From Eubacterium sp. ER2 (GTDB lineage: Bacteria > Bacillota > Clostridia > Lachnospirales > Lachnospiraceae), in assembly GCF_000765215.1 (NCBI RefSeq), contig NZ_JPJE01000021.1, forward strand, positions 1 through 64,000: a DNA stretch of 64,000 bases. The letters are read 5' to 3'. The position numbers were made by a program, and so were the translations under genes. A model generated the notes under the pieces. The model had not been told where the DNA came from. It ran no database searches and saw nothing but the letters and a program-made list of their open reading frames with translations. Within the stretch, counting starts at the first letter, position 1, and the number at the start of each line of letters is the position of its first letter. This document shows positions 16,896 to 34,561 of the stretch, one piece after another.

Positions 16896-16925
16896 ACGGG
16901 CGGTATATCCGCTCGTTTTTTTCAT
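16896..16925 (+). terminator. Terminator after the AI-2E family gene
   Basis: Hairpin ACGGGCGG/CCGCTCGT with one G-T pair and a TAT loop, followed by seven T. Confidence 0.85.
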
Positions 16926-16962
16926 AGGATATAAAAAAGATAAATTTTACAGGGAGACAGAC

Positions 16963-17580
16963 ATGCTGAATTATCTCTGGGCGGGAATGATCGTTGTCGG
17001 CATCGTGTATGCGGCGTGTACGGGACATATCGTGGAGGTGACCAACGCGGCGCTGGACTCCTCCAAGGAGGCCATCACTCTGTGCATCACCATGGCGGGG
17101 GTGATGGCCTTCTGGACAGGGCTCATGGAGATCGCCCAGAGGGGCGGGCTGATCCGGGCGCTGACAGGGCGGATGGCGCCGGTGCTTAAATTCCTTTTCC
17201 CGGGACTGCCGGTCGGGCATCCGGCGAGAGAACACATTGCCACGAATTTCATCGCCAATGTGCTGGGGCTTGGCTGGGCGGCCACGCCGGCAGGGCTTCG
17301 GGCCATGGAGGAGCTGGGAAAGCTGGAGGAGGACAGGAGAGCGGGCCGGGCGGCAGGGCCGGCAAGGAAGCGGGGGATCGCCAGCAATGAGATGTGCACC
17401 TTCCTTATCATAAATATCTCTTCGCTCCAGCTTATCCCGGTGAACGTGATCGCCTATCGCAGCCAGTACGGGAGCGTGAACCCGGCGGCTATCGTGGGGG
17501 CCGGGATCCTGGCCACATCGGTGAGCACAGGGGCGGCGATCCTGTTTTGCAGGGTGATGGAGAGAAAAAGGAGGGCCTGA
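16963..17580 (+). CDS. spmA: Spore maturation protein A
   Basis: A membrane protein of the nucleoside-recognition (Gate) family, 205 residues. In Bacillus and Clostridium SpmA acts with SpmB in dehydrating the spore core. Typical segments are SSKEAITLCITMAGVMAFW, GLMEIAQRGG, HIATNFIANVLGLGWAATPAG and MCTFLIINISSLQLIPVNVIA. The start at 16963 has AGGGAG seven bases upstream. A longer reading upstream in the same frame is only an overlap with the previous gene. Its normal partner spmB is 1.5 kb away, beyond an inverted MATE gene. A short insertion rich in Arg, Ala and Gly (about residues 115-135) is a little unusual. Confidence 0.92.
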   Translation: MLNYLWAGMIVVGIVYAACTGHIVEVTNAALDSSKEAITLCITMAGVMAFWTGLMEIAQRGGLIRALTGRMAPVLKFLFPGLPVGHPAREHIATNFIANVLGLGWAATPAGLRAMEELGKLEEDRRAGRAAGPARKRGIASNEMCTFLIINISSLQLIPVNVIAYRSQYGSVNPAAIVGAGILATSVSTGAAILFCRVMERKRRA

Positions 17581-17588
17581 CGCCCTCC
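17565..17588 (-). terminator. Terminator of the inverted MATE gene, overlapping the spmA stop
   Basis: On the minus strand GGAGGGC-GTCAG-GCCCTCC is followed by TTTTTCTC. The hairpin covers the last codons of spmA, so the two convergent genes share it. Confidence 0.7.
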
Positions 17589-17594
17589 AGCTAT

Positions 17595-18983
17595 TTAATC
17601 TTGTTTTGCAGTTTCTTTTTCCTTCCTGTTAAGCAGAGGCCACACAGTCAGCAGCATGGTGACGAAGCAGGCCGTGCCGCCCACAAAGTTGGAGATGGGC
17701 TCGGCCAGGAACACGCCGTCTGTGCCAAGTCCGCCCACAGCGGGCAGGATCAGGGTCAGCGGGATCACGATGATCACCTTCCGGAACAGGGAGAAGAAGA
17801 CCGCCTGCTTGGAGCGGCCCAGGGCCACGGCTGTGGACTGGCCGGCAAACTGCAGGGACATCATGAAGATGCCTGCAAAGTAGATGCGCATGGCGGGCAC
17901 GCCCTTCTCGATCAGCTCCGGATCGCTGTTGAAGAGGTGGATGAAAAAGTGTGGGAAGAAGAACAAAAGGGCCCAGGCGAAGAAGGAAAATACGATACAC
18001 GCCCAGGAGGTGAATTTGATCGCTGATTTCACCCTTCTGTATTCCCCGGCGCCGTAATTGTAGCTCATGACAGGCTGGGCGCCGTTTGTCAGCCCGTTGG
18101 CAGGCATGGTGATGATCTCCCGCACGGAGTTAATGACCGTCATGATGCCCACGTACAGGTCGCCGCCGTAGTGCTGCAGGGTGGCGTTGCACATGATCTG
18201 CACAGATCCGTTCGTGACGGACATGATAAAGCCGGACAGTCCCAGTCCGGTGATTTTTTTTATGATTGGAAGCTCCGGTTTCATGTAAGCGCGGGACAGA
18301 GTGATGACCGCCTTTTTCCCGGTGAGGAAATGGAAGACCCACACAGCGGACACGAACTGGGAGATGATGGTGGCCAGCGCGGCTCCCTGGACGCCCATGC
18401 CGAACACAAAGATAAACAGGGGATCCAGAACCAGGTTCAGCACAGCTCCAATGGATACAGAGAGCATACCTGTGACGCCGAAGCCCTGGGCGTTGATAAA
18501 GTTGTTCATGCCAAGGCTCACCATCACAAAGAGCGTGCCGCACAGGTAAATAGTGAGGTAGGCGTCCGCATAGGGATAGGTTACATCGCTGGCGCCGAAA
18601 AGATACATCAGCGGGCGGCGGAAAATGTAGCACAGGACGGCAAGGATCGCACCGCTTACAAGGAGCATGGTAAAGGAATTTGCCATGATCTTTTTTGCCT
18701 TTTCTGTCTCGCCTCCTCCCCTGGCAATGGAGAAGAGAGGGGCGCCGCCGGTGCCGAACAGGTTGGCAAAGGCAGTGATGATAGTGATGACGGGAAGAGT
18801 GAGGCCGATCCCGGTCAGGGCCTGGGTGGAGGTGTGGGGAATGTGACCGATGTAGATCCGGTCCACCACATTATATAAGACGTTGATGAGCTGTGCGCAG
18901 GTCATGGGGACAGCGAGCCTCAAAATATTTCCGGCTACGCTTCCCTTGCTGAAATCGCTGGAATTCTGTGCTGTATTCTGCAT
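17595..18983 (-). CDS. MATE family efflux transporter
   Basis: A second MATE antiporter, 462 residues with about twelve hydrophobic segments. It carries LAVPMTCAQLINVLYNVVDRIYIG at the first helix in shortened reading LYNVVDRIYIGHIP, GTGGAPLFSIARGGG after it, and ANGLTNGAQPVMSYNYGAG in the second half, a motif of the MepA/DinF branch. AAGGTGAT precedes the ATG. It lies on the opposite strand between spmA and spmB, which are normally adjacent, so it appears to have been inserted there. Only distant similarity is apparent to the MATE gene at 895-2250. The substrate is unknown. Confidence 0.9.
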   Translation of the reverse strand: MQNTAQNSSDFSKGSVAGNILRLAVPMTCAQLINVLYNVVDRIYIGHIPHTSTQALTGIGLTLPVITIITAFANLFGTGGAPLFSIARGGGETEKAKKIMANSFTMLLVSGAILAVLCYIFRRPLMYLFGASDVTYPYADAYLTIYLCGTLFVMVSLGMNNFINAQGFGVTGMLSVSIGAVLNLVLDPLFIFVFGMGVQGAALATIISQFVSAVWVFHFLTGKKAVITLSRAYMKPELPIIKKITGLGLSGFIMSVTNGSVQIMCNATLQHYGGDLYVGIMTVINSVREIITMPANGLTNGAQPVMSYNYGAGEYRRVKSAIKFTSWACIVFSFFAWALLFFFPHFFIHLFNSDPELIEKGVPAMRIYFAGIFMMSLQFAGQSTAVALGRSKQAVFFSLFRKVIIVIPLTLILPAVGGLGTDGVFLAEPISNFVGGTACFVTMLLTVWPLLNRKEKETAKQD

Positions 18984-19109
18984 GAGATCACCTTCTGCTA
19001 CGTAAAATTTCTGTAAATAGTATAGACGTTTTTGAAATGGTTTTCAAGATTTCTTCATATACATAAGAGAGGTGTATTTCAGATGTGATCAGCGAAAAGA
19101 GGGATAGCG

Positions 19110-19640
19110 ATGGAACTGTTTATGATCATTTCGAACATGATCATCCCTGTGGTGATACTGGGGGTCGTCTGCTTTGGGGTGTCCAGAAGGGTGCAGGTGT
19201 ACGATGCGTTTATCGAGGGGGCAAACAGCGGATTTCATATTGTGGTGAAGATCATGCCAACTATGGTGGCGCTGATGATCGCGGTGGGGATTTTGAGAGC
19301 GTCTGGATTTCTGGATATGATGGCCTCCCAGATCGGTCGGCTGACAGACCAGATCGGATTTCCGGGAGAGCTGGTGCCTCTCACTGTTGTGAAAATGTTT
19401 TCCTCCTCAGCAGCCACCGGGCTTCTACTGGATATTTTCAAGGAATTTGGTACGGATACATACATAGGCCTTGTAGCCTCTATCAGCATGTCCTGCACGG
19501 AGACGATCTTCTATACCATGAGTGTATATTTTATGACGGCAAAGGTGACGAGGACGAGGTTTACCCTGGCCGGGGCCCTCATCGCCACATTTGCCGGGCT
19601 GGCCGCCAGCGTGGTGCTGGCCGCGGGGATGGCGAGGTAG
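19110..19640 (+). CDS. spmB: Spore maturation protein B
   Basis: A Gate-family membrane protein of 176 residues. Family segments are IMPTMVALMIAVGILRASG, GFPGELVPLTVVKMFSSSAA and SISMSCTETIFYTMSVYF. It works with SpmA in late spore maturation. AGAGGG stands before the ATG. It has been separated from spmA by the inverted MATE gene and would need its own promoter in the 126 bases between the MATE start and this gene. The length is the normal one, so the gene looks intact. Confidence 0.92.
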   Translation: MELFMIISNMIIPVVILGVVCFGVSRRVQVYDAFIEGANSGFHIVVKIMPTMVALMIAVGILRASGFLDMMASQIGRLTDQIGFPGELVPLTVVKMFSSSAATGLLLDIFKEFGTDTYIGLVASISMSCTETIFYTMSVYFMTAKVTRTRFTLAGALIATFAGLAASVVLAAGMAR

Positions 19641-20326: not shown

Positions 20327-20965
20327 ATGGAGAAGGAGCAAAGGCTTCTTTGGCAGTGCCTGGAAATCTTCGGGACGGATGATCCGGAGCAATGGAAGAA
20401 AATTATGGAAAAGGCAAAGAAGTACGATGAGCTGATGCGTGGAGCCAGGCCGGTAAATCCCAGGGGAGCCGGGAGAAAAGGGCTGGAAGAGGAGAAGGCC
20501 GATGCGATACGCAGAATGTACCGGAAGGGCGTATCTGTCGCGGGAATTGCAAGGGAGATGTCTGTCAGCCGGCCTACGGTCTACCGGTATGTTGGAGAGC
20601 TCAGGCGGTGGGAGAGTCATCCCTCTGTTCAGATGCAGCTGGAATATATGTACAAAGACAGAGTGTGTACGGTCATCGATGTGGATTGGAAAAATCAGAC
20701 AATCTATGTGGAAAACCATACGGACCAGCTTCCTCTGACAGCCTTTGGGGTCAATAAAACGCCTGGCTGGGAGGAATTCAGGGAGTTTCTGGAGGACAGA
20801 TGTGTTCCCAGGACAAGGTTTCATTTAAAGGAGCTTCTGAGAGATATGGGGGTGGACTTTTACGACCCCATGCTGATCATAGAAGAGACAGAGGGGAGAA
20901 TGGCTGAAGACGATCAGTGGATCAGAATACATTACCGGGAGGGCGCGCTATGTCAGGAAGGATAA
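20327..20965 (+). CDS. Helix-turn-helix protein with resolvase-type DNA-binding domain
   Basis: 212 residues. Residues about 47-90 resemble the C-terminal helix-turn-helix of Hin-type resolvases: GRKGLEEEKADAIRRMYRKG, then VSVAGIAREMSVSRPTVYRY. There is no resolvase catalytic domain. The C-terminal 120 residues are unlike anything I recognise, with patterns such as VIDVDWKNQTIYVENHT. GGGAGGGAG precedes the ATG. It overlaps the HipA-like kinase by 16 bases, so the two are co-translated. By analogy with HipBA it may be the DNA-binding and neutralising partner of the kinase, but that is an inference. Confidence 0.75.
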   Translation: MEKEQRLLWQCLEIFGTDDPEQWKKIMEKAKKYDELMRGARPVNPRGAGRKGLEEEKADAIRRMYRKGVSVAGIAREMSVSRPTVYRYVGELRRWESHPSVQMQLEYMYKDRVCTVIDVDWKNQTIYVENHTDQLPLTAFGVNKTPGWEEFREFLEDRCVPRTRFHLKELLRDMGVDFYDPMLIIEETEGRMAEDDQWIRIHYREGALCQEG

Positions 20966-21768
20966 AGCTGGATATTCTGAACCGGGATGATCTGAGGGGG
21001 CACTCGTCAAAGGGAAACCAGCTGAAGGCAAGGGGTGGAAGCTACTGGTATAAAGCGGACTGCATGGGATACGAGGGGCTGGCGGAGACAGTTGTATCCT
21101 CTCTTCTGTCCCGCTCAGGGATTTTGGAAACGGTTCTCTATGAACCGGTGGAAATGGAATATAGATCACATGTGTATACAGGGTGCAGAAGCAGGAGCTT
21201 TTTAATGGAGGGTGAGTCTCTTCTCACAGTGGAAAAGCTGATCCGTCTGTACACAGGGAAAAGCGCGGCAAGGACCATGGCTCACATGGCGGATGTGAAG
21301 GATCGCATCTGCTATCTGGTGAATGTGATCACAGAGATTACGGGATTGACAGATTTTGGGAAATATCTTACGGCTATGCTGGAGATAGACGCCTTTTTCC
21401 TGAATGAGGACAGGCATACCAATAACATTGGGGTGATCTATCAGCCGGAGACCAGACGGTTTCGGCACTGCCCGTATTTTGATCATGGCCTGGCGCTGCT
21501 TGCGGACACAATGACGGTCTTTCCCCTGGGGGAAGCCTTGGAAAAATGTATGGAGAAAATCGAGGCAAAGCCGTTTTCAAGAAGCTTTGATGAACAGATG
21601 GATGCTGCGGAAGAAATGTATGGCCAGCAGGTGCATTTCCGGTTTTCTGTAAAAGAGGCAATAGAAGTACTGGAGGAGTGCAGATCCTGCTACTCTGAGG
21701 ATGTGCTGGAGCGGGTGGAACAGATCCTGCGATGGCAGATGTGGAAATACAGGTATCTGTTCCAGTAA
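20950..21768 (+). CDS. HipA-like protein kinase
   Basis: A 272-residue protein with the HipA kinase catalytic loop NEDRHTNNIG (catalytic Asp154, Asn159) and the metal-binding YFDHGLALL in place of the DFG motif. A lysine in WYKADCMGYEGLAE is a candidate ATP-binding residue. It lacks the N-terminal HipA domain and is about 160 residues shorter than E. coli HipA, so it resembles the minimal HipA/CtkA-type kinases. The start at 20950 is chosen because GGGAGGG precedes it. The gene ends without a close downstream partner, convergent to the DUF885 lipoprotein. A toxin-like or regulatory kinase role is likely but unproven. Confidence 0.72.
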   Translation: MSGRIKLDILNRDDLRGHSSKGNQLKARGGSYWYKADCMGYEGLAETVVSSLLSRSGILETVLYEPVEMEYRSHVYTGCRSRSFLMEGESLLTVEKLIRLYTGKSAARTMAHMADVKDRICYLVNVITEITGLTDFGKYLTAMLEIDAFFLNEDRHTNNIGVIYQPETRRFRHCPYFDHGLALLADTMTVFPLGEALEKCMEKIEAKPFSRSFDEQMDAAEEMYGQQVHFRFSVKEAIEVLEECRSCYSEDVLERVEQILRWQMWKYRYLFQ

Positions 21769-21797: not shown

Positions 21798-23549
21798 CTA
21801 CCTCGCTTCCCGCACCGCCCTCTCCACGATCTCAAAGGGCGCGGGCCCGGTGTCCAGCACGGCCTTGTGAAACCGTTTCTGGGAGAAGTCCTCTCCCCAT
21901 TCTCTGACGGCCGTCTTTTTCAGCTCCAGAAATTCCACATACCCGATATAGTATTTCAGATAATTGCCCGGGTCTCCGAGGATAAGGTCGTAGATGTCCC
22001 GTATGGTCTCTGTGTCCGTGATGCCGAAGCTGCGGAAGAAGGCCACCGTCTCGGTAAGAGACCAGCCGTCGTAGTGGATGCCCATGTCGGCCAGGGCGTA
22101 GAGACCTAAGATGACAGAGGCGTTCCGCTGCTCCAGGAGAGCTCTGTCCTCATCCATGCCGGTGAAGTAGTAGGAGAGCATTTCCACATAGGTGGCCCAG
22201 CCCTCTGTGTAGCCCCCGAAGGAGAGGAGACTGCGGACAGGGTCAGGATCCGTGGAAGCGTAGTACACGTTCTGGTAGAGATGCCCCGGATAGCCCTCGT
22301 GGGCCAGGGTGGTGAAGAGTGTCAGGTCGTCGGGGAGGTGTCCCTGGTTGATGTAGATCACATTTTCCTCTGCGTTGTCCACCGCGGGCACCATGTAGAA
22401 GGCGGGGCTTACGTACTCCGCCATCTCCTCCTGCACGAATTTGATCTCTGCGGTGACCTCCGGCAGGGAGGGGAAGGAGGAGGCAGTCTTCTCCCTCAGA
22501 TCTGCTAGGATGGCTTCCGGGTTAGAGTCATCCAGGGTGAAAATGGAGGCGGAGGCGGCCTTCGTCTCCTCCGGCGCTTCTCCCTCCCCTTGGGACAGGG
22601 GAGCTACGGACTGCATGGCGGACAGATCCTCCATCATTTGCTCTCTGGTCAGGTTCTGGAGCTGGGGGACTGTGCGGGCGGAGCCGGTGTCCCGCTTCAC
22701 GATGTACTCATAGTATTTTTTCCCATCCGGGTAATAGCACAGGCCGCACTCGTTTGTGCCTGTGTCCTTCAGGGCGGACACGGCGGCCGTCAGACGGTTG
22801 TAGGCGGGGAACAGGCAGTCATACACCAGATCCCGGTGCTGCAGGATGCAGGCCTCTTTCTGGCTGTCGGTGAGCTCTGTCAGCTTTTCCAGCCTGGACT
22901 GGAAGGAGGAGAAAAGGTAGTGGCTGTCTCCCAGGGCGGTGAAGGCGGCGCACTCGTCCAGCACATCCTGGGCGTTCCTTGAGGACATGAAAAGCCCGGC
23001 CCTTGACTTTGCCTGCTCAAAGGAGATGAGGGAGTCAAAGTAGGCGGGAACCTCCTCCAGGAGAGCCAGGTAGGTGTCCACGTCCTCCGGGGTGTCAAAG
23101 GAGAACTCGCACAGGAGGATGGGGAGCTGGGCCTGGACGCCGGTGAGGGGACTTAAGGGCTCCTCGTAGAGGGCGTAGGGAGAGCCCTGGAGGGCTGTCT
23201 CCAGCCAGGACTTCAGCACATCGAAGGTGAGCTGGTTTTCCGGGGAGAGCTTTTTGTACCGGAAATCCTCCAGGAGGGCCAGGCAGTTCTCAAGGGATGC
23301 GGCGGAGGCGGCTGTGTCGGCGCCAAAGGATCCCAGGGTCACAGGCGCGTCCTGGATGCCGTAGCTTTCCGGCTCCTTTACCGTATAGTGGAGTGTGATG
23401 GTGTCGGCTGCCACCTCCTGCCGGAACAGCTCCAGGGTGAACTGGCGGAAGAGGTCATTTTCGTCAGGACCGGGGAACAGGCTGCAGGAGGTCAGACAGG
23501 GAAGCAGCAGGCAGACGAGAAGCATGAGGGAAGTACACTTTTTGCGCAT
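21798..23549 (-). CDS. DUF885 family lipoprotein, putative metallopeptidase
   Basis: An exported protein of 583 residues with a lipoprotein signal peptide (LLVCLLLPCLTSC, lipid attached to the Cys). The rest matches the DUF885 family. The probable zinc motif is TLAHEGYPGHLYQ, an HExxxxH variant, and ALADMGIHYDGW with EMLSYYFTG lie on the C-terminal side as in relatives. This points to a surface-anchored peptidase. Substrate and pathway are unknown. It is transcribed away from the Wadjet operon, 149 bases from jetA, and is convergent to the HipA-like gene. Confidence 0.85.
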   Translation of the reverse strand: MRKKCTSLMLLVCLLLPCLTSCSLFPGPDENDLFRQFTLELFRQEVAADTITLHYTVKEPESYGIQDAPVTLGSFGADTAASAASLENCLALLEDFRYKKLSPENQLTFDVLKSWLETALQGSPYALYEEPLSPLTGVQAQLPILLCEFSFDTPEDVDTYLALLEEVPAYFDSLISFEQAKSRAGLFMSSRNAQDVLDECAAFTALGDSHYLFSSFQSRLEKLTELTDSQKEACILQHRDLVYDCLFPAYNRLTAAVSALKDTGTNECGLCYYPDGKKYYEYIVKRDTGSARTVPQLQNLTREQMMEDLSAMQSVAPLSQGEGEAPEETKAASASIFTLDDSNPEAILADLREKTASSFPSLPEVTAEIKFVQEEMAEYVSPAFYMVPAVDNAEENVIYINQGHLPDDLTLFTTLAHEGYPGHLYQNVYYASTDPDPVRSLLSFGGYTEGWATYVEMLSYYFTGMDEDRALLEQRNASVILGLYALADMGIHYDGWSLTETVAFFRSFGITDTETIRDIYDLILGDPGNYLKYYIGYVEFLELKKTAVREWGEDFSQKRFHKAVLDTGPAPFEIVERAVREAR

Positions 23550-23628: not shown

Positions 23629-23658
23629 TTTTCACGGGTTTGGGAGATGTGGTATAAT
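23629..23658 (+). promoter_or_regulatory. Promoter of the Wadjet operon
   Basis: A perfect -10 box TATAAT (23653-23658) with extended TG (TGG-TATAAT). The -35 box TTTTCA (23629-23634) is weaker, 18 bases upstream. Transcription would start about 23665, 34 bases before jetA. Confidence 0.7.
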
Positions 23659-23698
23659 GGTTGTGCATTTGTCCCATATGAAAAGACAGGAGAAGCAT

Positions 23699-25027
23699 AT
23701 GAAATACCTATACGAAATCCCGGACTCCTTCTGGAGCCTGTTCCGCTCCAGAAACCGGGATATATACATAGAAGCGCTGCTTCAGATCAACGAGGAATAC
23801 GAGTACAACAATTACTTCCTGAGCCGGGAGGTGTGCCTGGAGATCCTGGGGAATTTCTATACCCAGAAGAAGGTCACCCTGGAGGCGGAAGAGTCGGAGG
23901 ACGAGCTGGACATGCTGGAGACGCCGGCATCCAGGATCCTGAACTGGCTCCTTAAGACTCAGTGGCTGAAAAAGATCGAGGATTTTAATACCCTTGTGAC
24001 CAATATTGTCATCCCCGACTACGCAGCCATTTTCATAGAGGCCTTTGACCGGCTGACCCGGGAGGGGATGGAGGACACGGAGCTGTACATCCAGAACGTG
24101 TACGCCACTTTGTACTCCTTCCAGAACAATCCCAGGCTGAACAGCGCCATGCTCCGCTCCGCCCTGGTGAACACGAGGAAGCTTAATAAGGCTCTGCAGG
24201 ATATGCTCCACAATATGGACCGGTTTTACGGGCGGCTGCTGGAGCAGAAGGAGTACGGCCAGCTCCTGGCCGAGCACCTGGAGGGGTATGTGGAGGAGGT
24301 TGTCCGGAAGAAATACCACATTTTAAAGACAAGCGACAACTTTTACATTTACAAAATGGATATCAAAGAGTGCCTGGAGAAAATGCGGGAGGACGAGACG
24401 ATCTACGACCGCATCGGCGAGGAGGGGCTGGACATCCTGGACCGGATCGAGAGGAGCTTTGACGACATTGAGCGGCGCATCGCCAATATGGACAAGGAGA
24501 ACACAAAGTACATCCGGGCCACTGTGACCAGGCTCAACTATCTCCTGAACGGGGAGACGGACACAAAGGGGCTTGTGATCCAGCTTCTGAACCAGCTCGG
24601 AAAAGAGGGAAAGGAGGAGGAGAGGATCCGTAAGACTGCCTCGCGGATGAACCTGTCCCTCTTTGAAATCCTGTCGGAGAAATCCCTCTACAAGAGGAGA
24701 AGGCCGAAGAAGGATTTTGTCAGCCAGCTTGAGCGGGAGGAGGAGCCCCGGGAGCTCTCAAAGGAGGACGTCCTGAAGCTGAACCGCATCCACACCCGGT
24801 ATACGAGGAAGCAGATCGAGGAGTTCATTGAGGAGCATATGACCGGAGAGCAGATGCGGCTCGCGGATATGAAGGTGGAGGATGACGAGGATTTTGAGAA
24901 GATCATCCTGGCCTACGACTACAGTACAAAGCACGGCAGCAGGTACCAGGTGATCGAGGAAGGCGGCCTGGTGGAGAGCGGGAAATACCGCTATCCGAAG
25001 CTGACATTCGTGCGCAGGAGGGTGTGA
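23699..25027 (+). CDS. jetA: Wadjet defence protein JetA (kleisin-like subunit)
   Basis: First gene of a four-gene Wadjet system, 442 residues. The product is an acidic, mainly helical protein resembling the type II JetA family (DUF5716), which acts like the kleisin MukF and joins the two SMC arms. The N-terminus FWSLFRSRNRDIYIEALLQI and the later coiled stretch around residues 240-290 fit this. The start at 23699 follows AGGAG at a good distance. Upstream in-frame ATGs lack a site. The next gene starts seven bases after its stop. The family assignment leans on the unmistakable neighbours JetB, JetC and JetD. Confidence 0.88.
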   Translation: MKYLYEIPDSFWSLFRSRNRDIYIEALLQINEEYEYNNYFLSREVCLEILGNFYTQKKVTLEAEESEDELDMLETPASRILNWLLKTQWLKKIEDFNTLVTNIVIPDYAAIFIEAFDRLTREGMEDTELYIQNVYATLYSFQNNPRLNSAMLRSALVNTRKLNKALQDMLHNMDRFYGRLLEQKEYGQLLAEHLEGYVEEVVRKKYHILKTSDNFYIYKMDIKECLEKMREDETIYDRIGEEGLDILDRIERSFDDIERRIANMDKENTKYIRATVTRLNYLLNGETDTKGLVIQLLNQLGKEGKEEERIRKTASRMNLSLFEILSEKSLYKRRRPKKDFVSQLEREEEPRELSKEDVLKLNRIHTRYTRKQIEEFIEEHMTGEQMRLADMKVEDDEDFEKIILAYDYSTKHGSRYQVIEEGGLVESGKYRYPKLTFVRRRV

Positions 25028-25034
25028 GAAGGAT

Positions 25035-25679
25035 ATGATCGATTACACAGAGCAGCTAAGCGATGAGGAGAGGGAGCAGATTACCGAAGTGATCCGGCTT
25101 CTGTACAGGCAGACCTTTATTCTGGAGAGAAAATACGACAGGAGGGCCGAGAGATGGCAGTACAGCAGGGAGTATAAGATCTGTGTCCAGCACATGGAAT
25201 TTTTGAAGGCGTACTTCCAGGTGGCGGGCATTGAGCTTGTGGAAAATATCTACCTGGGCGTGATCTACATCCGGGACGGCATGCTCATGGGCGAGAAGCT
25301 TCCGCGGCTTGCCACCATTTACATCCTTGTGCTGAAGATTCTGTACGACGAGCAGATGGCCCAGGTGTCGTCCAGCACAAGGATCGTGACAACGCTGGGG
25401 GCGGTGAACGGCAAAGCCGGGGAGTTCCAGGTGATGAAATCCCTGCCGTCTCCCACGGAGATACGGCGCAGCATTGCCCTTCTGAAGAAATATCAGATCA
25501 TAGAGCCTCTGGACATTCTGGAGGAGTTAAACGAGGGGACCAGGATGATCATTTACCCTACCATCAACATGGTACTCACCGGGGACGATATCCGGGCGCT
25601 CTTAAAGACATTTGGCGAGGAGGAGAACAGTGGAGACGAAACAGGCGTTCAAAATACTATCGAAGATCTGTCTGAATAA
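25035..25679 (+). CDS. jetB: Wadjet defence protein JetB (DUF4194, MukE-like)
   Basis: A 214-residue protein of the DUF4194 family, the MukE-like partner in the Wadjet SMC complex. Typical parts are LYRQTFILERKYDRR at the N-terminus and LPRLATIYILVLKILYDEQM, followed by a winged-helix region with SPTEIRRSIALLKKYQII. It overlaps jetC by 50 bases, since jetC starts at the GTG at 25630 inside its end. In Wadjet, JetA, JetB and JetC form the loop-extruding motor. Confidence 0.9.
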   Translation: MIDYTEQLSDEEREQITEVIRLLYRQTFILERKYDRRAERWQYSREYKICVQHMEFLKAYFQVAGIELVENIYLGVIYIRDGMLMGEKLPRLATIYILVLKILYDEQMAQVSSSTRIVTTLGAVNGKAGEFQVMKSLPSPTEIRRSIALLKKYQIIEPLDILEELNEGTRMIIYPTINMVLTGDDIRALLKTFGEEENSGDETGVQNTIEDLSE

Positions 25680-28600
25680 CTGGCATTATATAGACAGAAA
25701 GGTGTTGTCGCTGAACAAGGAAGTAAATTTCTTTACCGGCCACTCGGGAAGCGGAAAGTCCACAGTCATTGACGCGCTTCAGATCGTCCTGTACGCCAAC
25801 ACGGATGGGCGGGGCTTTTTCAACAAGGCGGCGGCCGATGACTCGGACCGGAGCCTGATCGAGTATCTGCGGGGCATGGTCAACATCAGCGACAACAATG
25901 AGTCCCAGTATCGGAGAAACAAAAATTTTTCCAGCACCATCGTGCTGGAGTTCACAAACAGCGTCACCGGAGAGCAGGAGTGCGTGGGCGCCTCCTTTGA
26001 CGTGGAGACGGCCACCAACGAGATCAGCCGCCTCTTCTTCTGGCACAGGGGCGAACTCCTTCCCAACCTGTACCGTGGAGAGGGGCGGGTCCTGTCCACC
26101 GTGGAGGTGCGGGAGTATCTGCAGAGGAATTTCCCCCAGGACGGCTACTACTGCGGCCCCAGCAATGAGAGGTTCCGCCGCCAGCTCTACGACGTGTATC
26201 TGGGAGGGCTGGACAAGGAGAAGTTCCCCAGGCTTTTCAAGAGGGCGATCCCCTTCCGCATGAACATCCGGCTGGAGGACTTTGTGAAGGAGTACATCTG
26301 CATGGAGCAGGATATCGAGATCCAGGACATGCAGGAGAGCGTCATGCGCTACGGGCAGATGCGCAGCAAGATTGAGGCTACACTGAAAGAAATTCAATCG
26401 TTGACAAAAATAGAAGAAAGTTTCTCTCTCTATAAGGAGAAAAAGACAGAGGAGGAGAGCTGGCTGTACCGGGCCCTGCGCCTGGAAATCCTCCAGCTTC
26501 GCCGCCGTCTGGAGGGCATCCGGGACCGGAAGGCCCAGGAGGAGAAGGAGAAAAAGGAGCAGCAGAGCCTGAAGGAGAGGACAGACAGGGAGGCGGAGGA
26601 GCTGCAGAGGCAGTACGAGGACATCATCGTCCGCATTGCCCAGACCGGGTACGAGGAGCTGAAGGATAAGCTCTCCCAGGTCAATCTGTTCCTGGAGCAT
26701 CTGTCCGCCAGCAGGAGCAGCCTGCAGAAGACAAAGGAGAGCATGGAGGAGTGGAAGAAGCAGGACATGGTGTCCAACCCCATGCTCAGAGATATGGAAA
26801 AGCTCTGCCAGGGCAGCATCACAGAGGAGGAGCTCCAGCGGCTCAAGGACAATTTCACCGACATCCGGCGGGAGCTGGAGGAGGAGAGAGGCGAGCTGGG
26901 CGCCCAGCTTCGGGCTATGAAAAAGGAGATGCAGGCGGCCCGCCAGGAGATCGCTGACCTGAAGCAGGGAAAGAAGGCCTATCCCCGGGAGCTGGAGGAG
27001 GCCAGATACTATATCCGGGAGGAGCTCCAGAAGAGGGCCGGAAAATTTGTGAACGTACAGATTTTGGCGGATATGCTGGAGGTCAGGGACGAGACATGGC
27101 ACAATGCGGTGGAGGGCTATCTGGGGAACAACAAGCTGTCCCTCATGGTGGAGCCGGCCTACGCAAAGGAGGCCATGGAGATCTATGAGACCATGGATAA
27201 AAAGAAATTCTGGCGCGCCGCCGTGGTGGACACGGAGCGCCTCATGCAGGGCAGCCACCCGGTCAGGGAGGGTGCTCTGGCAGAGGAGGTGAAGGCGGGG
27301 ACAGACTTTGCCCAGGTCTACACGGATTTCCTTCTTGGCAGGGTGATCAAGTGCCGGGATATCGACGAGCTGCGGCAGCAGACTGTGGGCATCACCCCCG
27401 GGTGCATGCTGTACAAGAGCTATAAGCTGCAGCATATCAATCCGGAGAATTACACAGAGCGCGCCTCTATCGGCGAGAACAGTCTCCGGAAGAGGAGAAA
27501 GAGGCTGGAGGAAAAGCTGGAGAAGCTGGAGAAGCAGAGGGTGCCCCTGGAAGAGCGCCAGGAGGAGATCCGCTCTGTCCTTGCCATGGACTATCTGGAC
27601 CGCCCCGCCGGAGAGTACTTGAGCATGATAAAGGATATCCGGATGATCGGCGAGAAGGAAAAAGAAAGAGAAATGCTGCAGAGCCAGATACAGGAGCTCA
27701 AGGAGGAGAATGTAGGCAGGCTTGAGCGGGAGAAGGAGGAGCTGAGGGAGCGCCAGACAAGGAAAAAGCAGCAGGCAGACGGCATCCAGAAGGCCATCTG
27801 GCAGCATGAGAGAAGGATCCAGGAGGCGGATCAGGAGTATCTGGATTTGGATGAAGAGTTAAATGAGAAACAGAAAAGTTTCAAAGAAAACGAAGAATTT
27901 GCGGAGAGCTTCCAATCCTATATGGAGAGCAGGAAGAGCTCCAACTATGAGTACCTGAAAAATCTCTGCTTCCGGGAGCAGGCTGTCTGCCGGGAGGAGA
28001 GGGAGAAGAGATACCAGGAGCTGGTGGACATCCGCAGCAGCTACCTGCGGGAGTACCCCCACCGCACATTCTCGGCCAGCGCGGAGGACAATGGAGATTA
28101 CGAGAAGCTCCTGAACACGCTCCAGTGCGACCATCTGGAGGAGTACAAGGAGAAAGCGGCGGAGCAGGCCAGGACCGCGGTCCAGCATTTCAAGGAGGAC
28201 TTTATCTACAAGATCCGCAGCGCCATCAAGGAGGCGCTCCAGCGAAAGGATGAGCTGAACCGGATCATCAGCCGGCTGGACTTCGGAAAGGACAAGTACC
28301 AGTTTGTGATCACCAGGAACAAGGGGGCCTACGGGGAATACTATGACATGTTCATGGACGACTCCCTGGAGATCGATCCTTCCCAGCTCTCCTACAATAT
28401 GGAGAACCAGATGAACCTGTTTACCATGGAGCACGAGGAGAAGTACGGGGAGCTGATAGGGGAGCTGATCCAGATCTTCATCCCGCCGGAGAACGCCTCC
28501 GCCGAGGAGATGGAGGAGGCAAAGCAGAATATGCGGAAATACTCGGACTACCGCACATACCTCTCCTTTGACATGCAGCAGATCGTGCGGGGCGAGAAGA

Positions 28601-28986
28601 ACATGCACATTGGTCTTGGAAAGATGATCTCCAAGAACTCCGGCGGGGAGGGCCAGAATCCCCTCTATGTGGCGCTTCTGGCCAGCTTTGCCCAGCTCTA
28701 CCGTCTGGACTATTCGCCCAGAGTCCGCAGGAACCCCACCATCCGCCTTGTCATCCTGGACGAGGCCTTTTCCAAGATGGATGCGGAGAAGGTGGCTACC
28801 TGCATCGAGCTGATCCGGGGGCTTGGCTTCCAGGCTATCATCAGCGCCACCAACGACAAGATCCAGAACTATCTGGAGAACGTGGACAAGACCTTTGTCT
28901 TCGCCAACCCGGACAAGCAGAACATCTCCATCATGGAGTTTGAGAAGCAGGATTTTGACGAGCTGATGGAGGAGGCTGAAGAATAA
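25630..28986 (+). CDS. jetC: Wadjet defence protein JetC (SMC-like ATPase)
   Basis: An SMC/MukB-like ATPase of 1118 residues. The Walker A motif GHSGSGKST is at residues 37-45. The ABC signature is NSGGEGQNP (Ser1004), and Walker B is LVILDEAF (Asp1044-Glu1045). Between the two heads are long Glu/Lys/Gln/Arg-rich coiled coils, with a globular hinge near residues 470-600. JetC extrudes DNA loops, which lets the complex sense small circular DNA. The start is GTG at 25630, with GAGGAGG seven bases upstream. An in-frame TTG 18 bases earlier would precede that site and is unlikely. Confidence 0.95.
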   Translation: METKQAFKILSKICLNNWHYIDRKVLSLNKEVNFFTGHSGSGKSTVIDALQIVLYANTDGRGFFNKAAADDSDRSLIEYLRGMVNISDNNESQYRRNKNFSSTIVLEFTNSVTGEQECVGASFDVETATNEISRLFFWHRGELLPNLYRGEGRVLSTVEVREYLQRNFPQDGYYCGPSNERFRRQLYDVYLGGLDKEKFPRLFKRAIPFRMNIRLEDFVKEYICMEQDIEIQDMQESVMRYGQMRSKIEATLKEIQSLTKIEESFSLYKEKKTEEESWLYRALRLEILQLRRRLEGIRDRKAQEEKEKKEQQSLKERTDREAEELQRQYEDIIVRIAQTGYEELKDKLSQVNLFLEHLSASRSSLQKTKESMEEWKKQDMVSNPMLRDMEKLCQGSITEEELQRLKDNFTDIRRELEEERGELGAQLRAMKKEMQAARQEIADLKQGKKAYPRELEEARYYIREELQKRAGKFVNVQILADMLEVRDETWHNAVEGYLGNNKLSLMVEPAYAKEAMEIYETMDKKKFWRAAVVDTERLMQGSHPVREGALAEEVKAGTDFAQVYTDFLLGRVIKCRDIDELRQQTVGITPGCMLYKSYKLQHINPENYTERASIGENSLRKRRKRLEEKLEKLEKQRVPLEERQEEIRSVLAMDYLDRPAGEYLSMIKDIRMIGEKEKEREMLQSQIQELKEENVGRLEREKEELRERQTRKKQQADGIQKAIWQHERRIQEADQEYLDLDEELNEKQKSFKENEEFAESFQSYMESRKSSNYEYLKNLCFREQAVCREEREKRYQELVDIRSSYLREYPHRTFSASAEDNGDYEKLLNTLQCDHLEEYKEKAAEQARTAVQHFKEDFIYKIRSAIKEALQRKDELNRIISRLDFGKDKYQFVITRNKGAYGEYYDMFMDDSLEIDPSQLSYNMENQMNLFTMEHEEKYGELIGELIQIFIPPENASAEEMEEAKQNMRKYSDYRTYLSFDMQQIVRGEKNMHIGLGKMISKNSGGEGQNPLYVALLASFAQLYRLDYSPRVRRNPTIRLVILDEAFSKMDAEKVATCIELIRGLGFQAIISATNDKIQNYLENVDKTFVFANPDKQNISIMEFEKQDFDELMEEAEE

Positions 28987-29055
28987 GCCGGGATACAGGC
29001 GGAAGACACACCGGGAGCGAAGATCGGCGCGGAGAACAGGAGCGGAGGTAATTCT

Positions 29056-30309
29056 GTGGACGGATACAGAGGCGGCTACATTGTCAGGAAGATCATTGAA
29101 AATTATGAGAAGAAGAAAAATGACTGGAACCATTCCCTGGAGGGGCGCCGCAGCCTGAAGATCCATCAGGAGGATTTTGATAAAGCGGAGAGGGAGGCGG
29201 GCGCCCCGAGGGGAGCAGGCCGTGACCTGGTGGTCCGGGAGATGCTGGAGCTGGAGCGCCTGGGACTGATCCCCAAAAAGGAAGTGCGCTGGCAGAATTA
29301 TAAGCAGGATTTCAGCGAATTTCACTACTATAACAAAGACATGCCCGTCTATTATAAAATGGCGGGAAAGACGCCCAAGTATGAGACTGCCGCCGCGTAC
29401 AAGCGGGAGCTGGAGGAGCTGGCCGGTGCACTGCGCAGACAGTGGCTCAGGGACTATGTCAGAGACCGCTGGAGGGAGGCGTACAGCGGAAAGCTGAAGG
29501 CAAAGGAGTTGAGCCGGATCTTCGGACAGGGGAGAAAGGAGCAGTACTTTGCCTGCCTGAAGGGGCTGGATGAGCTGGAGGAGCCTGTCTATGTACAGAT
29601 CTTCAGCAGCCGGTATCTGGGGCGTCCCAAGATTTTCAGGGATGACCCGGCCGGGTTCAGGGGCTGGGTGGTCCAGATGGCACGGGACTACCACCCGGAT
29701 ATAGACAGAGCTATGGATGACTCCCAGGTGCTCTCCTGGCTCTACATAGAAGAGTACTCCCAGCAGATGGAGGTGAAGGGGCCGCTGCGCCTGGAGATCG
29801 AAGGGCAGACTGTGGACCTGGGAAAGCTGCGGTACGGCACGGTCCTCAACAGCGAGACGCTGAAGAGCGCCCGCATCTGCCGGCAGCAGAACATCCGGCG
29901 GATCGTGACGATAGAGAACAGGGCCAGCTTTATCTGCGAGCCCTTTGAGGAGGAGACACTGTATGTCTTCACCCACGGCTTCCTCTCTCCCAAGGAGAGA
30001 GATTTCCTGAAGAACCTTGCGGAAGTGCTGAAGGACAGGACCGTGGAATATCTGCACAGCGGGGACATGGATTTCGGAGGACTTCGTATCTTCTGCTTCA
30101 TCCAGGACAATCTCTTCCCGGATGTCAGGCCGCTGTATATGAGCGCAGAGCTCTACCGACGCCACCTGTCGTCGGGATATAAGATGGAGCCGGGAGCGCT
30201 CCGGGACCTGGAGAGGATGAGCGCAGACCTGCCGGAGGAGCTGGAAGAGCTCAGGCAGGAGATGCTGAAGACCGGCAAGGGTTTGGAGCAGGAGATGCTG
30301 CTCATATGA
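29056..30309 (+). CDS. jetD: Wadjet defence protein JetD (Toprim nuclease subunit)
   Basis: The nuclease of the system, 417 residues. The C-terminal half has the topoisomerase VI-like Toprim fold (DUF2220): Glu287 in VTIENRAS, and Asp337/Asp339 in SGDMDFGGLRI as metal ligands. The N-terminal half is a helical arm region with many Arg and Glu. JetD cleaves plasmid DNA once the JetABC motor has extruded it. The start is GTG at 29056 with GGAGGT seven bases upstream, 69 bases after the jetC stop. All catalytic acids that I can identify are present, so the system looks functional. Confidence 0.93.
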   Translation: MDGYRGGYIVRKIIENYEKKKNDWNHSLEGRRSLKIHQEDFDKAEREAGAPRGAGRDLVVREMLELERLGLIPKKEVRWQNYKQDFSEFHYYNKDMPVYYKMAGKTPKYETAAAYKRELEELAGALRRQWLRDYVRDRWREAYSGKLKAKELSRIFGQGRKEQYFACLKGLDELEEPVYVQIFSSRYLGRPKIFRDDPAGFRGWVVQMARDYHPDIDRAMDDSQVLSWLYIEEYSQQMEVKGPLRLEIEGQTVDLGKLRYGTVLNSETLKSARICRQQNIRRIVTIENRASFICEPFEEETLYVFTHGFLSPKERDFLKNLAEVLKDRTVEYLHSGDMDFGGLRIFCFIQDNLFPDVRPLYMSAELYRRHLSSGYKMEPGALRDLERMSADLPEELEELRQEMLKTGKGLEQEMLLI

Positions 30310-30311: not shown

Positions 30312-30932
30312 TCACATGCAGCGGCGGAAACGGGCTTCCGCGCAGGACCAGTTTACGACCCGGAACCAGTCGTCGATATAGCTGGCGCGCATGTTGTAAT
30401 GCTTCAGATAGTAGGCGTGCTCCCAGACGTCTATGGCCAGCAGCGGCAGGCAGCAGCGCAGGTTTGGCGTGTCCTGGTTCGCGGAGGTGGCGATGCATAA
30501 AGCGCCCTTTTCCCAGACAAGCCACGCGTAGCCGGAGCCGAACACAGAGAGGGCGGCCCCCTTAAAGCAGGATCTGAAATGTTCCGTGCTGCCGAACTGT
30601 CTGGTTATCTGCGTAGAGAGGGCGGGCGCCTGTCCCCGGGTGCCTGCCTTTGTCATGCCCTCAAAGAAGAAGCGGTGATTGAACACACCGCCCGCGTTGT
30701 TGAGCAGAGGAGTCCGGAGCTGGCAGGGCAGTCTGTCACGGCTGACCAGCAGCTCTGTCAGAGAGTACTTCTGAAGAGATGGATCAGCTTCAAGGAGCTG
30801 GTTCAGGTTGTCGATATATGTCTGGAGATGCCGGTCATGGTGCAGCCGCATGGTCTTTTCGTCGATGAAGGGCTCCAGGGCGTCATAGGCGTAGGGGAGC
30901 GGGGTGTTGAAAAAGGGATAGTGATCATTCAT
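30312..30932 (-). CDS. Fe/Mn superoxide dismutase
   Basis: Removes superoxide in the cytosol. The 206 residues show all four metal ligands: His in MRLHHDRH, His in GGVFNHRFF, Asp and His in IDVWEHAYY. FGSGYAWLV is the usual core segment. Whether iron or manganese is bound cannot be judged safely. The start is uncertain among ATGs at 30932 and 30938 and a TTG at 30944. The first has GGA seven bases upstream and is used here. The gene is convergent with jetD, with only two bases between the stops. The C-terminus is unusual in being rich in Cys and Arg (SCAEARFRRCM). Confidence 0.9.
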   Translation of the reverse strand: MNDHYPFFNTPLPYAYDALEPFIDEKTMRLHHDRHLQTYIDNLNQLLEADPSLQKYSLTELLVSRDRLPCQLRTPLLNNAGGVFNHRFFFEGMTKAGTRGQAPALSTQITRQFGSTEHFRSCFKGAALSVFGSGYAWLVWEKGALCIATSANQDTPNLRCCLPLLAIDVWEHAYYLKHYNMRASYIDDWFRVVNWSCAEARFRRCM

Positions 30933-30981
30933 GTTCATTTCCAATTAGGGTTTTTAACAGTATATGCATGGAGCTGACACC

Positions 30982-31016: not shown

Positions 31017-31328
31017 CAGATTATTTTTCATAATAGAAACGCTGTGACGAAGAGAGTAGGTTCGGGAAAGTTTTACAGAGAAATTTCCGTATGCTGAGAG
31101 GAAATGGATGGAAGCGGGCTGAAGATGGCTTCCGAGCGGCGCAGACGAACGGGGAGAAGCCTAAGTGCTCAATGTAAGTCTGTGAAGGGACCGCCCTCTA
31201 CAGCGGAGAGATGTCGGCCGAACCGGCACCTTATGAGGTTTCTGCCGCGAGGCAGGAGTGAATGAGAAGTGGTAACACGGTAAATTCGTCTTCTCTGATT
31301 TCCAATGGGAGTCAGAGAAGATTTTTTT
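31017..31328 (+). promoter_or_regulatory. T-box leader (methionine-specific) of metG
   Basis: A tRNA-sensing leader of about 310 nt. Stem I contains AGAGAGTAGG on the 5' side and the distal element GCTGAGAGG. An ATG specifier codon sits at 31125-31127 in the specifier loop between GAAG and GCTTCC. The T-box element AAGTGGTAACACGG (31267-31280) holds TGGT, which can pair with the uncharged acceptor end ACCA of tRNA-Met. This is a divergent form of the usual AGGGTGGTACCGCGG. A terminator follows directly. Uncharged tRNA-Met would stabilise the antiterminator and switch metG on. Confidence 0.87.
31289..31328 (+). terminator. T-box attenuator terminator
   Basis: Hairpin TCTTCTCTGA (31289-31298) with TCAGAGAAGA (31312-31321), then seven T. 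It competes with the antiterminator formed by the T-box element just upstream. Confidence 0.85.
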
Positions 31329-31351
31329 ATGAAAAAAGGAGAGTAGAGAGT

Positions 31352-33250
31352 ATGGAAAAACAGAAGTATTACATCACAACAGCCATTGCTTACACATCAG
31401 GCAAGCCCCACATCGGGAACACCTACGAGATCGTGCTGGCAGACGCCATTGCCAGGTACAAGAGGAGCCAGGGGTATGACGTGTTCTTCCAGACCGGAAC
31501 CGACGAGCACGGGCAGAAGATCGAGCTGAAGGCCGAGGAAGCCGGCGTGACGCCAAAGGAGTTTGTGGACAATGTGGCAGGGGAGATTAAGAGAATCTGG
31601 GATCTGATGAACACCTCCTACGACAAGTTCATCCGCACCACGGATCCGGATCACGAGAAGCAGGTGCAGAAGATTTTCAAAAAGCTGTACGACCAGGGAG
31701 ATATTTACAAGGGATATTACGAGGGGATGTACTGCACTCCCTGCGAGTCCTTCTTCACAGAGTCCCAGCTTGTGGATGGCAAATGTCCGGACTGCGGCCG
31801 GGAGGTGCAGCCTGCAAAGGAAGAGGCCTATTTCTTTAAGATGAGCAAATATGCGGACCGGCTCATCGAGCACATCAACACCCATCCCGAGTTCATCCAG
31901 CCGGTGTCAAGGAAAAATGAGATGATGAACAATTTCCTCCTCCCGGGACTGCAGGATCTGTGCGTGTCCAGGACCTCCTTTAAATGGGGAATTCCGGTGG
32001 ACTTTGACCCGGACCATGTAGTGTACGTGTGGCTGGACGCCCTGACCAACTATATTACCGGAATCGGATATGACTGTGACGGGGAGAGCACAGAGCAGTT
32101 CAAGAAAAACTGGCCGGCAGACCTCCATTTGATCGGAAAGGATATTATCCGTTTCCACACCATTTACTGGCCCATCTTCCTCATGGCCCTGGATCTGCCC
32201 CTTCCCAAGCAGGTGTTTGGGCACCCATGGCTTCTCCAGGGAGACGGCAAGATGAGCAAGTCCAAGGGAAATGTGCTCTACGCGGATGAGCTGGTGGATT
32301 TCTTCGGCGTGGACGCTGTGCGCTACTTTGTGCTCCATGAGATGCCCTTTGACAACGACGGCGTGATCTCCTGGGAGCTGATGGTAGAGAGAATGAACTC
32401 TGACCTGGCAAACACCCTTGGAAATCTGGTAAACCGCACGATTTCCATGACAAATAAATACTTTGGCGGCACAGTGACAGACAAGGGCGTGTCCGGGGAA
32501 GTGGACGCGGATCTGAAGGCTGTGACAGAGAACATGCCAAAGGCAGTGGAGAGCAAAATGGACGACCTGCGGGTGGCGGATGCCATCACAGAGATCTTTA
32601 CCCTGTTCAAGCGCTGCAACAAATACATTGATGAGACCATGCCCTGGGCCCTTGCAAAGGACGAGGTAAAGAGGGACCGCCTCGAGACTGTGCTCTTTAA
32701 TCTGATCGAGAGCATCAAAGCCGGCGCGGCGGCGCTGGAGCCCTTTATGCCTGAGACATCAGAGAAGATCCTGGCACAGCTGGGAGACGGCAAGGTGACA
32801 GAGAAGCCGGAGATCCTCTTCCAGAGACTGGATCTTGAGGAGGTCATGAAAAAGGTGGAGGAGCTTCATCCCCATGTGGAAGAGAAGGAAGAAGCGGAAA
32901 ATGTGATCGATATAGAGGCAAAGCCGGAGATCACATTTGAGGAGTTCGGAAAAATGCAGTTCCAGGTGGGCGAGATCATCGAGTGCGAGGCTGTGAAGAA
33001 GTCCAAAAAGCTTCTCTGCTCCAAGGTGCGCGTGGGAAGCCAGATCAAACAGATCGTGTCCGGCATTAAGTCCAACTACACGCCGGAGGAGATGGTAGGC
33101 AAGAAGGTCATGGTGCTTGTGAACCTGAAGCCGGCCAAGCTGGCAGGTGTGCTCTCAGAGGGCATGCTGCTCTGCGCTGAGGATGCAGACGGCAATCTGG
33201 CCCTCATGACGCCGGAGAAGGATATGCCGGCAGGAGCACAGATCTGCTAA
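31352..33250 (+). CDS. metG: Methionyl-tRNA synthetase
   Basis: Charges tRNA-Met. The 632 residues contain the class I signatures HIGN (from His20) and KMSKS (from Lys300). A zinc knuckle has CTPCESF and KCPDCGRE, and the C-terminal EMAP/Trbp111-type tRNA-binding domain begins near residue 530 (QVGEIIECEAVKKSKKLL). The start at 31352 has AAGGAGAG upstream. A longer in-frame reading runs through the terminator and is not used. Expression is controlled by the T-box leader, so it answers to methionine supply. Confidence 0.97.
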   Translation: MEKQKYYITTAIAYTSGKPHIGNTYEIVLADAIARYKRSQGYDVFFQTGTDEHGQKIELKAEEAGVTPKEFVDNVAGEIKRIWDLMNTSYDKFIRTTDPDHEKQVQKIFKKLYDQGDIYKGYYEGMYCTPCESFFTESQLVDGKCPDCGREVQPAKEEAYFFKMSKYADRLIEHINTHPEFIQPVSRKNEMMNNFLLPGLQDLCVSRTSFKWGIPVDFDPDHVVYVWLDALTNYITGIGYDCDGESTEQFKKNWPADLHLIGKDIIRFHTIYWPIFLMALDLPLPKQVFGHPWLLQGDGKMSKSKGNVLYADELVDFFGVDAVRYFVLHEMPFDNDGVISWELMVERMNSDLANTLGNLVNRTISMTNKYFGGTVTDKGVSGEVDADLKAVTENMPKAVESKMDDLRVADAITEIFTLFKRCNKYIDETMPWALAKDEVKRDRLETVLFNLIESIKAGAAALEPFMPETSEKILAQLGDGKVTEKPEILFQRLDLEEVMKKVEELHPHVEEKEEAENVIDIEAKPEITFEEFGKMQFQVGEIIECEAVKKSKKLLCSKVRVGSQIKQIVSGIKSNYTPEEMVGKKVMVLVNLKPAKLAGVLSEGMLLCAEDADGNLALMTPEKDMPAGAQIC

Positions 33251-33650: not shown

Positions 33651-34561
33651 GTGACGAAGAAAAATGACAAGTTTATCATGCTTCCCACCGTGGACGTGTG
33701 CTTTAAGGGACTGATGTACAATCCCAAGGTGAGAAAGGGCTTTATCGCCGCCCTGCTGGGAGCGGACCCGGCATCCATCCGGGAGACAGTGCTGCTTCCC
33801 ACGGCGCTGCGCAGGAATACCCGGACGAGAAGCTGGGCATCCTGGATATCCGGGCCCTGATGGAGGACGGGGCGCAGGTCAACATGGAGATGCAGGCGTA
33901 CCCCTTCGGGCAGTGGGACGCCAGATCCCTGTTTTATTTGAGTAAAATGTACACAGATCAGATTGGGAGGGGCGATCCCTACACGAAGCTGAAAAAGCGT
34001 ATCCATGTGAGCATACTGGACTTTATCCGCTTTGCGGATGACAGGAAATGCCACCGGACCATCAGCCTGTGCGATGAGCAGACAGGAGAAAAGTACACAG
34101 ACCTTCTGGAGCTGCAGATCCTGGAGCTGAAGAAGCTGCCGGGGGATCTGCGGGAGGACGACGAGGTCATCCAGTGGATGCGTTTTCTGGCTGGGAAGGA
34201 CCGGAAGGAGTTGGAGGATATGGCAAGTACAAGCGAATATATCGAGGAGGCTTACAGGGAGCTGGAGAGGATGAGCGCGGACGAGAGGGCCAGGCTGGAG
34301 TACGAGGCCCGGCAGAAGGCCATCCGGGATCACGATGCCATCATGAGCAGCGCCTGGGAGACCGGCATGGAGAAAGGCATAGAGAAAGGAATGGAGAAAG
34401 GTCTGCGGAAAGGCAGAGAGCAGGGCGTACGCCAGGAGAGAAAGGATATTGCCCTTCGCATGCTGGAAAAGGGCATGGACATGGAGACGATCGCGGATCT
34501 GACCGGTATGGATGTGGAAGAAGTCCGGAAGCTGTCAGAAAAGTTTCGGGCAAAAGAGTGA
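33651..34561 (+). pseudogene. Rpn family PD-(D/E)XK nuclease, frameshifted
   Basis: A recombination-promoting nuclease/putative transposase (Rpn/YhgA type). It starts with GTG at 33651 (AAGGAG upstream) and reads well to LLPTALRR, then leaves frame. The reading continues one frame back as EYPDEKLGILDIRALMED and runs to 34561. Restoring one G in AGGAATAC at 33814-33815 rejoins both halves perfectly, giving about 303 residues. The C-terminus has the usual GMEKGIEKGMEKGLRKG repeats and a short HTH-like tail. No slippery heptamer is visible, so a one-base deletion (or a sequencing error) is more likely than programmed shifting. Confidence 0.85.

Follow-up and report, generated by a model that had tools for sequence, protein, structure and literature searches.

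The first 64,000 nucleotides of the forward strand of contig NZ_JPJE01000021.1 from Eubacterium sp. ER2 (the window) carry the four genes of a Wadjet plasmid-defence system, jetA, jetB, jetC and jetD, all intact, in the order A-B-C-D and on the plus strand between positions 23699 and 30309. The genome, in 74 contigs of 3.27 Mb in total, is that of a Claveliimonas-type member of the Lachnospiraceae, and the closest relatives of its JetC are found in Claveliimonas monacensis (97% identity) and strain An118 (96%). All four proteins are full-length matches to the PADLOC models of Wadjet type I with E-values from 1e-105 to 0, which rules out chance; the check by PADLOC models proposed with the original prediction thereby upholds a complete operon in canonical order (bit scores in Table 1). 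The predicted span of 23629-30309 is a fair one, 23629 being the first base of a promoter-like site. JetC matches the SbcC/Rad50-type ATPase families of Pfam and contains a Walker A motif (GHSGSGKST), a Walker B motif (VILDEA) and the signature SGGEG. In JetD, residues E287, H334, D337, D339 and E411-Q412-E413 are invariant in all 21 aligned JetDs; these presumably include the catalytic Toprim acids, which is consistent with the predicted fold. The Walker motifs, signature and Toprim acids that had been read from the sequence are therefore all present. The JetD model, with a predicted local distance difference test score (pLDDT) of 87, finds structural matches in MksG (8b7f, E 1.8e-10), JetD of Pseudomonas aeruginosa PA14 (7til), topoisomerase VI-A and Spo11, and the JetA model is of low confidence (pLDDT 74). 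Single-sequence searches of the PDB returned nothing related, with E of up to 10 allowed for JetA, JetB and JetD and up to 0.001 for JetC, nor did a profile search with JetB find anything related. Judged by its sequence, the operon at 23699-30309 is a complete, intact Wadjet. Taken alone it is an ordinary one, of a kind already known, and the part worth following is the distribution of JetD around it.

The earlier reading had also assigned JetA to a type II (DUF5716) family. Membership of DUF5716 stands (PF18982, 464 bits) and the label of type II does not, for two reasons: first, every best PADLOC model belongs to type I, and models of type II reach no more than 34.4 bits (JetC2) and 27.5 bits (JetD2) against 1610 and 390 bits for type I. 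Second, a profile of 25 JetCs matches, among Wadjet proteins, type I JetC only: that of Escherichia coli GF4-3 (8as8, 1096 amino acids; E 1.9e-23) and that of PA14 (1119 amino acids; E 3.7e-17), both classed as type I in the excerpted text of PMC10586767, with no match to the type II JetC of Neobacillus vireti. Type II Wadjets are described as having a channel-less hinge and longer coiled coils (PMC12647877, in excerpt). Pointing against type I, the low-confidence JetA model is nearest in Foldseek to JetA of N. vireti Wadjet-II (9qe0) and to MukF, a weak likeness, and the JetAs of PA14 and E. coli come at ranks 11 and 12. Although the fold search with JetA leans the opposite way, the PADLOC and JetC profiles lead us to reject type II, which is very improbable, and on balance the window operon appears to be a type I Wadjet.

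Relatives were picked by JetC only: 123 were found, the best 80 were taken, and with the window and five loci of its genus they form a set of 86 loci (loci are numbered L, genomes G) in which Jet genes were called by iterated profiles. Among the 80, jetD follows jetC within 400 nt, directly behind it, in 17 loci, lies 0.7-7 kb farther behind it in three and is a fragment in one; it is absent from 55, and four have a contig end there and are uncallable. Of the 20 whole jetDs, 17 are those directly behind jetC. In L083, about 7 kb of other sequence (12013-19165) lie between jetC and an intact-looking jetD. A search for JetD remnants within 9 kb downstream of JetD-less jetCs found only the N-terminal fragment in L088, and there was one weak match in the upstream control. 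Fifty genomes, covering L088 and 49 of the 55 JetD-less loci, were searched for JetD_C: 28 had no match at all, and 22 had one, nine of these (including the genome of L088) above 40 bits.

The pattern reaches into the genus of the window, in which five of the 11 genomes have JetD. Two of its genomes that are single contigs, the chromosome of Claveliimonas bilis (G001) and G002, contain JetA, JetB and JetC and show no JetD match. In the window and in L066, jetABCD is followed downstream by metG; in C. bilis, metG is the next gene behind jetC, starting about 0.9 kb after it, and the DUF885 gene upstream of the window operon is found in the same place and on the same strand. Across the family, 200 sampled genomes include 57 with JetA and 65 with JetD_C; 16 of the 57, read by hand, are without JetD_C. 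Of 13 genomes in the genus of Eisenbergiella tayi, 10 have JetA; ten JetA loci from eight genomes were compared (G285 and G288 were left out). Eight of these loci are of the close JetABC type, one of them with jetD and two of them breaking off within about 1.1 kb of jetC. The genus also has two divergent second JetABC copies, which carry JetD. Divergent second JetABC sets with JetD, beside another set in the same genome, were observed in L129, L173 and L175, as if roles were divided between the copies.

A second genus, around L096 (Lacrimispora xylanisolvens), allows loci with and without jetD to be matched. JetA is present in 24 of its 25 genomes, and all 24 loci show JetA, JetB and JetC, the jetC of G272 being cut by a contig end. 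jetD lies behind jetC in two of the 24, G273 and G265, and these are also the only JetD_C matches above 34 bits in the genus; the contigs of G270 and G272 end too near jetC for a jetD to be seen, both genomes being without a JetD_C match. By Pfam identities, ftsH lies upstream in 15, uvrA downstream in 12 and both in 11 of 20 loci compared, and the jetD of G273 sits within this ftsH-uvrA arrangement. In G265 (L148), a downstream flank of 4.9 kb is common to four JetD-less relatives at 86-87% identity, starting behind jetD in L148 and behind jetC in the four; the upstream flank is common to three relatives, two of which also share the downstream flank. At such matching loci, with homologous flanks, the JetCs with and without jetD are 89-95% identical. 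JetC distances track those of the neighbouring housekeeping proteins, with r 0.94 for FtsH (n=12) and r 0.96 for UvrA (n=10) at a permutation p of 0.0001. In L161 (G278), jetA, jetB and jetC are split over frames; the adjoining uvrA is also short, pointing to indels of the assembly and not to decay. In L157 (G264), jetC only is split.

The core proteins remain under constraint in the absence of the nuclease. The ratio of nonsynonymous to synonymous divergence (dN/dS) was taken from six pairs with jetD and from 14 lacking it, in one of which a member lies at a contig end. Without jetD, the values for JetA, JetB and JetC, where computable, are 0.02-0.12, even at dS above 1, the exceptions being a JetC at 0.21 in a pair of dS 0.02 and a JetB at 0 in a near-identical pair. 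With jetD they are 0.02-0.13, and JetD itself gives 0.10-0.21 in the five of six pairs in which it is computable. JetA, JetB and JetC are thus constrained about equally without and with JetD and are kept by selection. Run against PADLOC, the JetD-less proteins of C. bilis and L. xylanisolvens fall under the models found for the window and score similarly, with 710 and 791 bits for JetA and 1563 and 1684 bits for JetC; for JetB of L. xylanisolvens the best model is the next in line, not that of the window. All 58 JetD-less JetCs have Walker A and 57 of them have SGGEG; of 23 JetCs accompanied by jetD, 21 have Walker A and 22 have SGGEG.

The scattered absence of JetD could have arisen by repeated loss or by repeated gain. 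JetD presence requires 16 changes on one JetC tree, from which the split jetCs of L074 and L114 were dropped, and 13 on a tree of 74 rows, counts that alone do not separate gain from loss. Between JetC and JetD, distances are correlated, with r 0.87 (n=21), or 0.77 (n=17) once near copies are removed, at a permutation p of 0.0001. Furthermore, the JetD tree groups G273 and G265 (L147 and L148) with G043 (L144), the nearest JetD carrier to them by JetC, as JetC similarity does. Given this agreement between JetC and JetD divergence, repeated loss of JetD fits best. Repeated gain appears less likely, both distances and trees being in agreement and jetD standing directly behind jetC in 17 of 20 carriers.

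In studied Wadjets, paired JetABC motors extrude DNA and stall on a used-up small circle, which JetD then cuts (PMC12287153, PMC10586767 and PMC12647877, as excerpted). By homology, two motors, each made of the SMC ATPase JetC, the kleisin JetA and the KITE protein JetB, would load on DNA and reel it in with ATP. On a small circle the motors would run out of DNA and stall, upon which the Toprim nuclease JetD would cut, such that small plasmids would be destroyed and the chromosome spared. Loop extrusion, cutting and plasmid resistance by the window operon would follow from its likeness to these systems, and the plasmid resistance originally predicted for the strain is a reasonable inference from known Wadjets. 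In this branch of the Lachnospiraceae, JetD behaves like an effector that can be detached from its JetABC core, and the core is often passed on and maintained in its absence. Given that the core is often kept without JetD, it probably has an additional role for which the nuclease is not needed, the simplest candidate being one on the host's own chromosome, like that of MksBEF in P. aeruginosa. It is considered likely, therefore, that the window holds an intact type I Wadjet with a detachable JetD, the core of which probably also acts without the nuclease, perhaps on the chromosome, while JetD adds plasmid cutting. A stronger form of this proposal makes JetABC a resident second condensin, inherited vertically and working on the chromosome, with plasmid cutting switched by jetD alone; it seems about evenly balanced between right and wrong. 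If true, Wadjet would here be caught repeatedly becoming an MksBEF-like condensin, with close species pairs that differ at this place by jetD alone.

Several observations weigh against a detachable JetD on a maintained core. JetA is not universal even in the genus of the window (8 of 11 genomes). In one clade (L050, L054, L056, L059 and L094), jetA does not adjoin jetB, being 7-9 kb upstream in two loci and not found within the stretch examined in three; in this interrupted operon jetB and jetC are still intact. jetC is split in L074 and L114, and its frame is broken in G264 and G278 of the Lacrimispora-type genus. In the family sample, 33 of the 57 JetA genomes, read by hand, have JetD_C on the same contig within about 8 kb, and frequent absence of JetD therefore belongs to the nearer relatives. 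The JetD_C matches above 40 bits elsewhere in nine of the 50 genomes searched make service in trans possible for some. In L081 and L084, the JetDs are 99% identical (dS 0.05) and the JetCs 88% (dS 0.56), so that jetD seems to have moved by itself, and the JetD of the window is somewhat more diverged from that of nearer relatives than JetC predicts. The jetDs of L081 (14399-15571) and L084 (14165-15337) lie 0.7-0.9 kb behind jetC. Lastly, no site in JetA, JetB or JetC is clearly tied to the loss of JetD after allowing for the tree, in a test from which L074, L114, L086, L119, L121, L129-L132 and the contig-end and fragment rows were dropped; the largest site differences in JetA and JetC are slightly above those of plain label shuffles. 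L226 and F112 of JetA are the best sites listed: of 11 independent pairs, about 2-6 show a conservative change there and none goes against it. Given the many columns tested, no claim is made for them.

It is possible, but unlikely, that JetABC serves primarily as a housekeeping condensin throughout the family, window included, with JetD an occasional passenger and plasmid defence secondary. The near-constant JetA of the Lacrimispora-type genus (24 of 25 genomes) and its ftsH-uvrA site (11 of 20 loci) would fit such a role, as would vertical inheritance and purifying selection without JetD. However, JetA has a patchy, more defence-like distribution, with only 8 of 11 genomes in the genus of the window and 57 of 200 in the family sample carrying it, and jetD, where present in the 80 relatives, is placed directly behind jetC in 17 of 20. 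Furthermore, an ordinary SMC is present in all 11 genomes of the window's genus; JetABC there is therefore at most a second condensin.

A little less probable again is that JetABC remains a defence without JetD, helped by another nuclease in trans or else compacting and silencing incoming circles uncut. The nine genomes with a stronger JetD_C match, one of them that of L088, and those with a second, divergent JetABC copy and its own JetD speak for it; yet 28 of the 50 genomes are without any JetD_C match, and no family resembling a replacement effector was found among the neighbours. This search for an alternative to JetD covered the neighbour families present in at least four JetD-less loci and was made by eye; metG and four Lacrimispora neighbours were identified by Pfam. 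That the JetD-less loci are decaying remnants of Wadjets is hardly tenable: the JetD fragment of L088, the split JetCs of L074, L114, G264 and G278 (the last perhaps an assembly fault, its uvrA being short too) and the separated jetA of the clade of five speak for it, but it is largely answered by the selection data, with dN/dS mostly 0.02-0.12 even at high dS, by the nearly unbroken Walker A and SGGEG motifs and by the presence of JetA in all but one of 25 genomes of one genus.

A detachable JetD can be set beside known systems. The type I Wadjets of E. coli GF4-3 and P. aeruginosa PA14 have the same four subunits, the same JetD fold and a JetC of similar size (1118 amino acids in the window, 1096 and 1119 in these); the window operon differs in belonging to the PF18982 branch of JetA and in having no single-sequence match to a Wadjet in the PDB. 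The closest structure to the JetD model, MksG 8b7f, is from MksBEFG of Corynebacterium glutamicum, a system termed Wadjet type I in the excerpt of PMC10123090. In sequence MksG is distant, the JetD profile reaching only E 0.23 against 8b7f. The Wadjet-II of N. vireti is weakly closest by the JetA model and has no JetC profile match. The native Wadjet of Clostridium cellulovorans (PMC12287153, in part) is a clostridial chromosomal jetABCD, like that of the window. MksBEF of P. aeruginosa is a JetABC-like complex without a nuclease (excerpts of PMC7485682 and PMC10586767), and loss of JetD yielding a condensin has been proposed for it (PMC10586767, same excerpt). Unlike such MksBEF/MukBEF-type condensins, the window has jetD, and its absence recurs in close relatives, partly at orthologous loci. 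In Stenotrophomonas maltophilia, of another phylum, a conserved Wadjet I jetABC without jetD is called probably inactive by its authors in the portion of PMC11680222 drawn on here, which contains no analysis of selection or of gain and loss. By titles and the starts of abstracts, no description of recurrent JetD loss in the Lachnospiraceae was found in the open-access papers searched. The function of JetABC without its nuclease becomes testable here in natural, closely related pairs. In these gut bacteria, plasmid defence would be overestimated from counts of JetA, JetB and JetC alone, and the ease of plasmid uptake may depend on whether jetD is present.

The boundaries of the operon are given in Table 1. 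The start of jetA is most likely the ATG at 23699 and not that at 23657, because the best PADLOC model begins there and AGGAG lies just upstream, and because the TATAAT of the promoter-like site overlaps the earlier ATG. Consensus matching found seven promoter-like sites in the region against 3.2 expected in shuffles. For jetC, for which the list of open reading frames (ORFs) had a TTG at 25612, the most likely start is the GTG at 25630, inside jetB and overlapping its end by 50 nt. Synonymous divergence between the window and L042 is uneven along the operon (jetA 0.54, jetB 0.67, jetC 0.31, jetD 0.24), hinting at recombination inside it.

Table 1. Positions in the window of the jet genes, the upstream promoter-like site and the flanking genes (aa, amino acids).
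Feature	Position	Strand	Basis
Promoter-like site 5' of jetA	23629..23658	+	TTTTCA, 18 nt, TATAAT; TG before second hexamer; consensus match only
jetA, kleisin subunit, 442 aa	23699..25027	+	PADLOC PDLC00451 JetA1 728 bits; Pfam PF18982 JetA 464 bits
jetB, KITE (MukE-like) subunit, 214 aa	25035..25679	+	PADLOC PDLC00483 JetB1 350 bits; PF13835 DUF4194
jetC, SMC/MukB-like ATPase, 1118 aa from GTG	25630..28986	+	PADLOC PDLC00505 JetC1 1610 bits; Walker A/B, SGGEG
jetD, Toprim nuclease, 417 aa from GTG	29056..30309	+	PADLOC PDLC00524 JetD1 390 bits; PF09983 JetD_C
DUF885 protein, flanking gene	21798..23549	-	PF05960; synteny
Fe/Mn superoxide dismutase, flanking gene	30312..30944	-	PF02777/PF00081
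metG (methionyl-tRNA synthetase), flanking gene	31262..33250	+	ORF; L045 homologue is PF09334; synteny

The superoxide dismutase gene is convergent with jetD, the two stops being 3 nt apart. Upstream of the operon, two overlapping genes at 20327-21768 (+) encode a resolvase-type helix-turn-helix (HTH) protein (PF02796) and a weak HipA/PI-kinase-like protein, which matches the PADLOC candidate PDC-M03A with 35 bits; homologues, partly truncated, are found in the same area of L042 and L044. Downstream, a gene at 33860-34561 (+) encodes an Rpn/PD-(D/E)XK recombination-promoting nuclease that is apparently short at its N-terminus, the match to the family models starting only from about position 62. 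Towards the right end of the window, an HTH repressor-like gene (-) and a D5_N/DUF5906 primase-helicase gene at 57607-60914 suggest a phage-like or satellite element.

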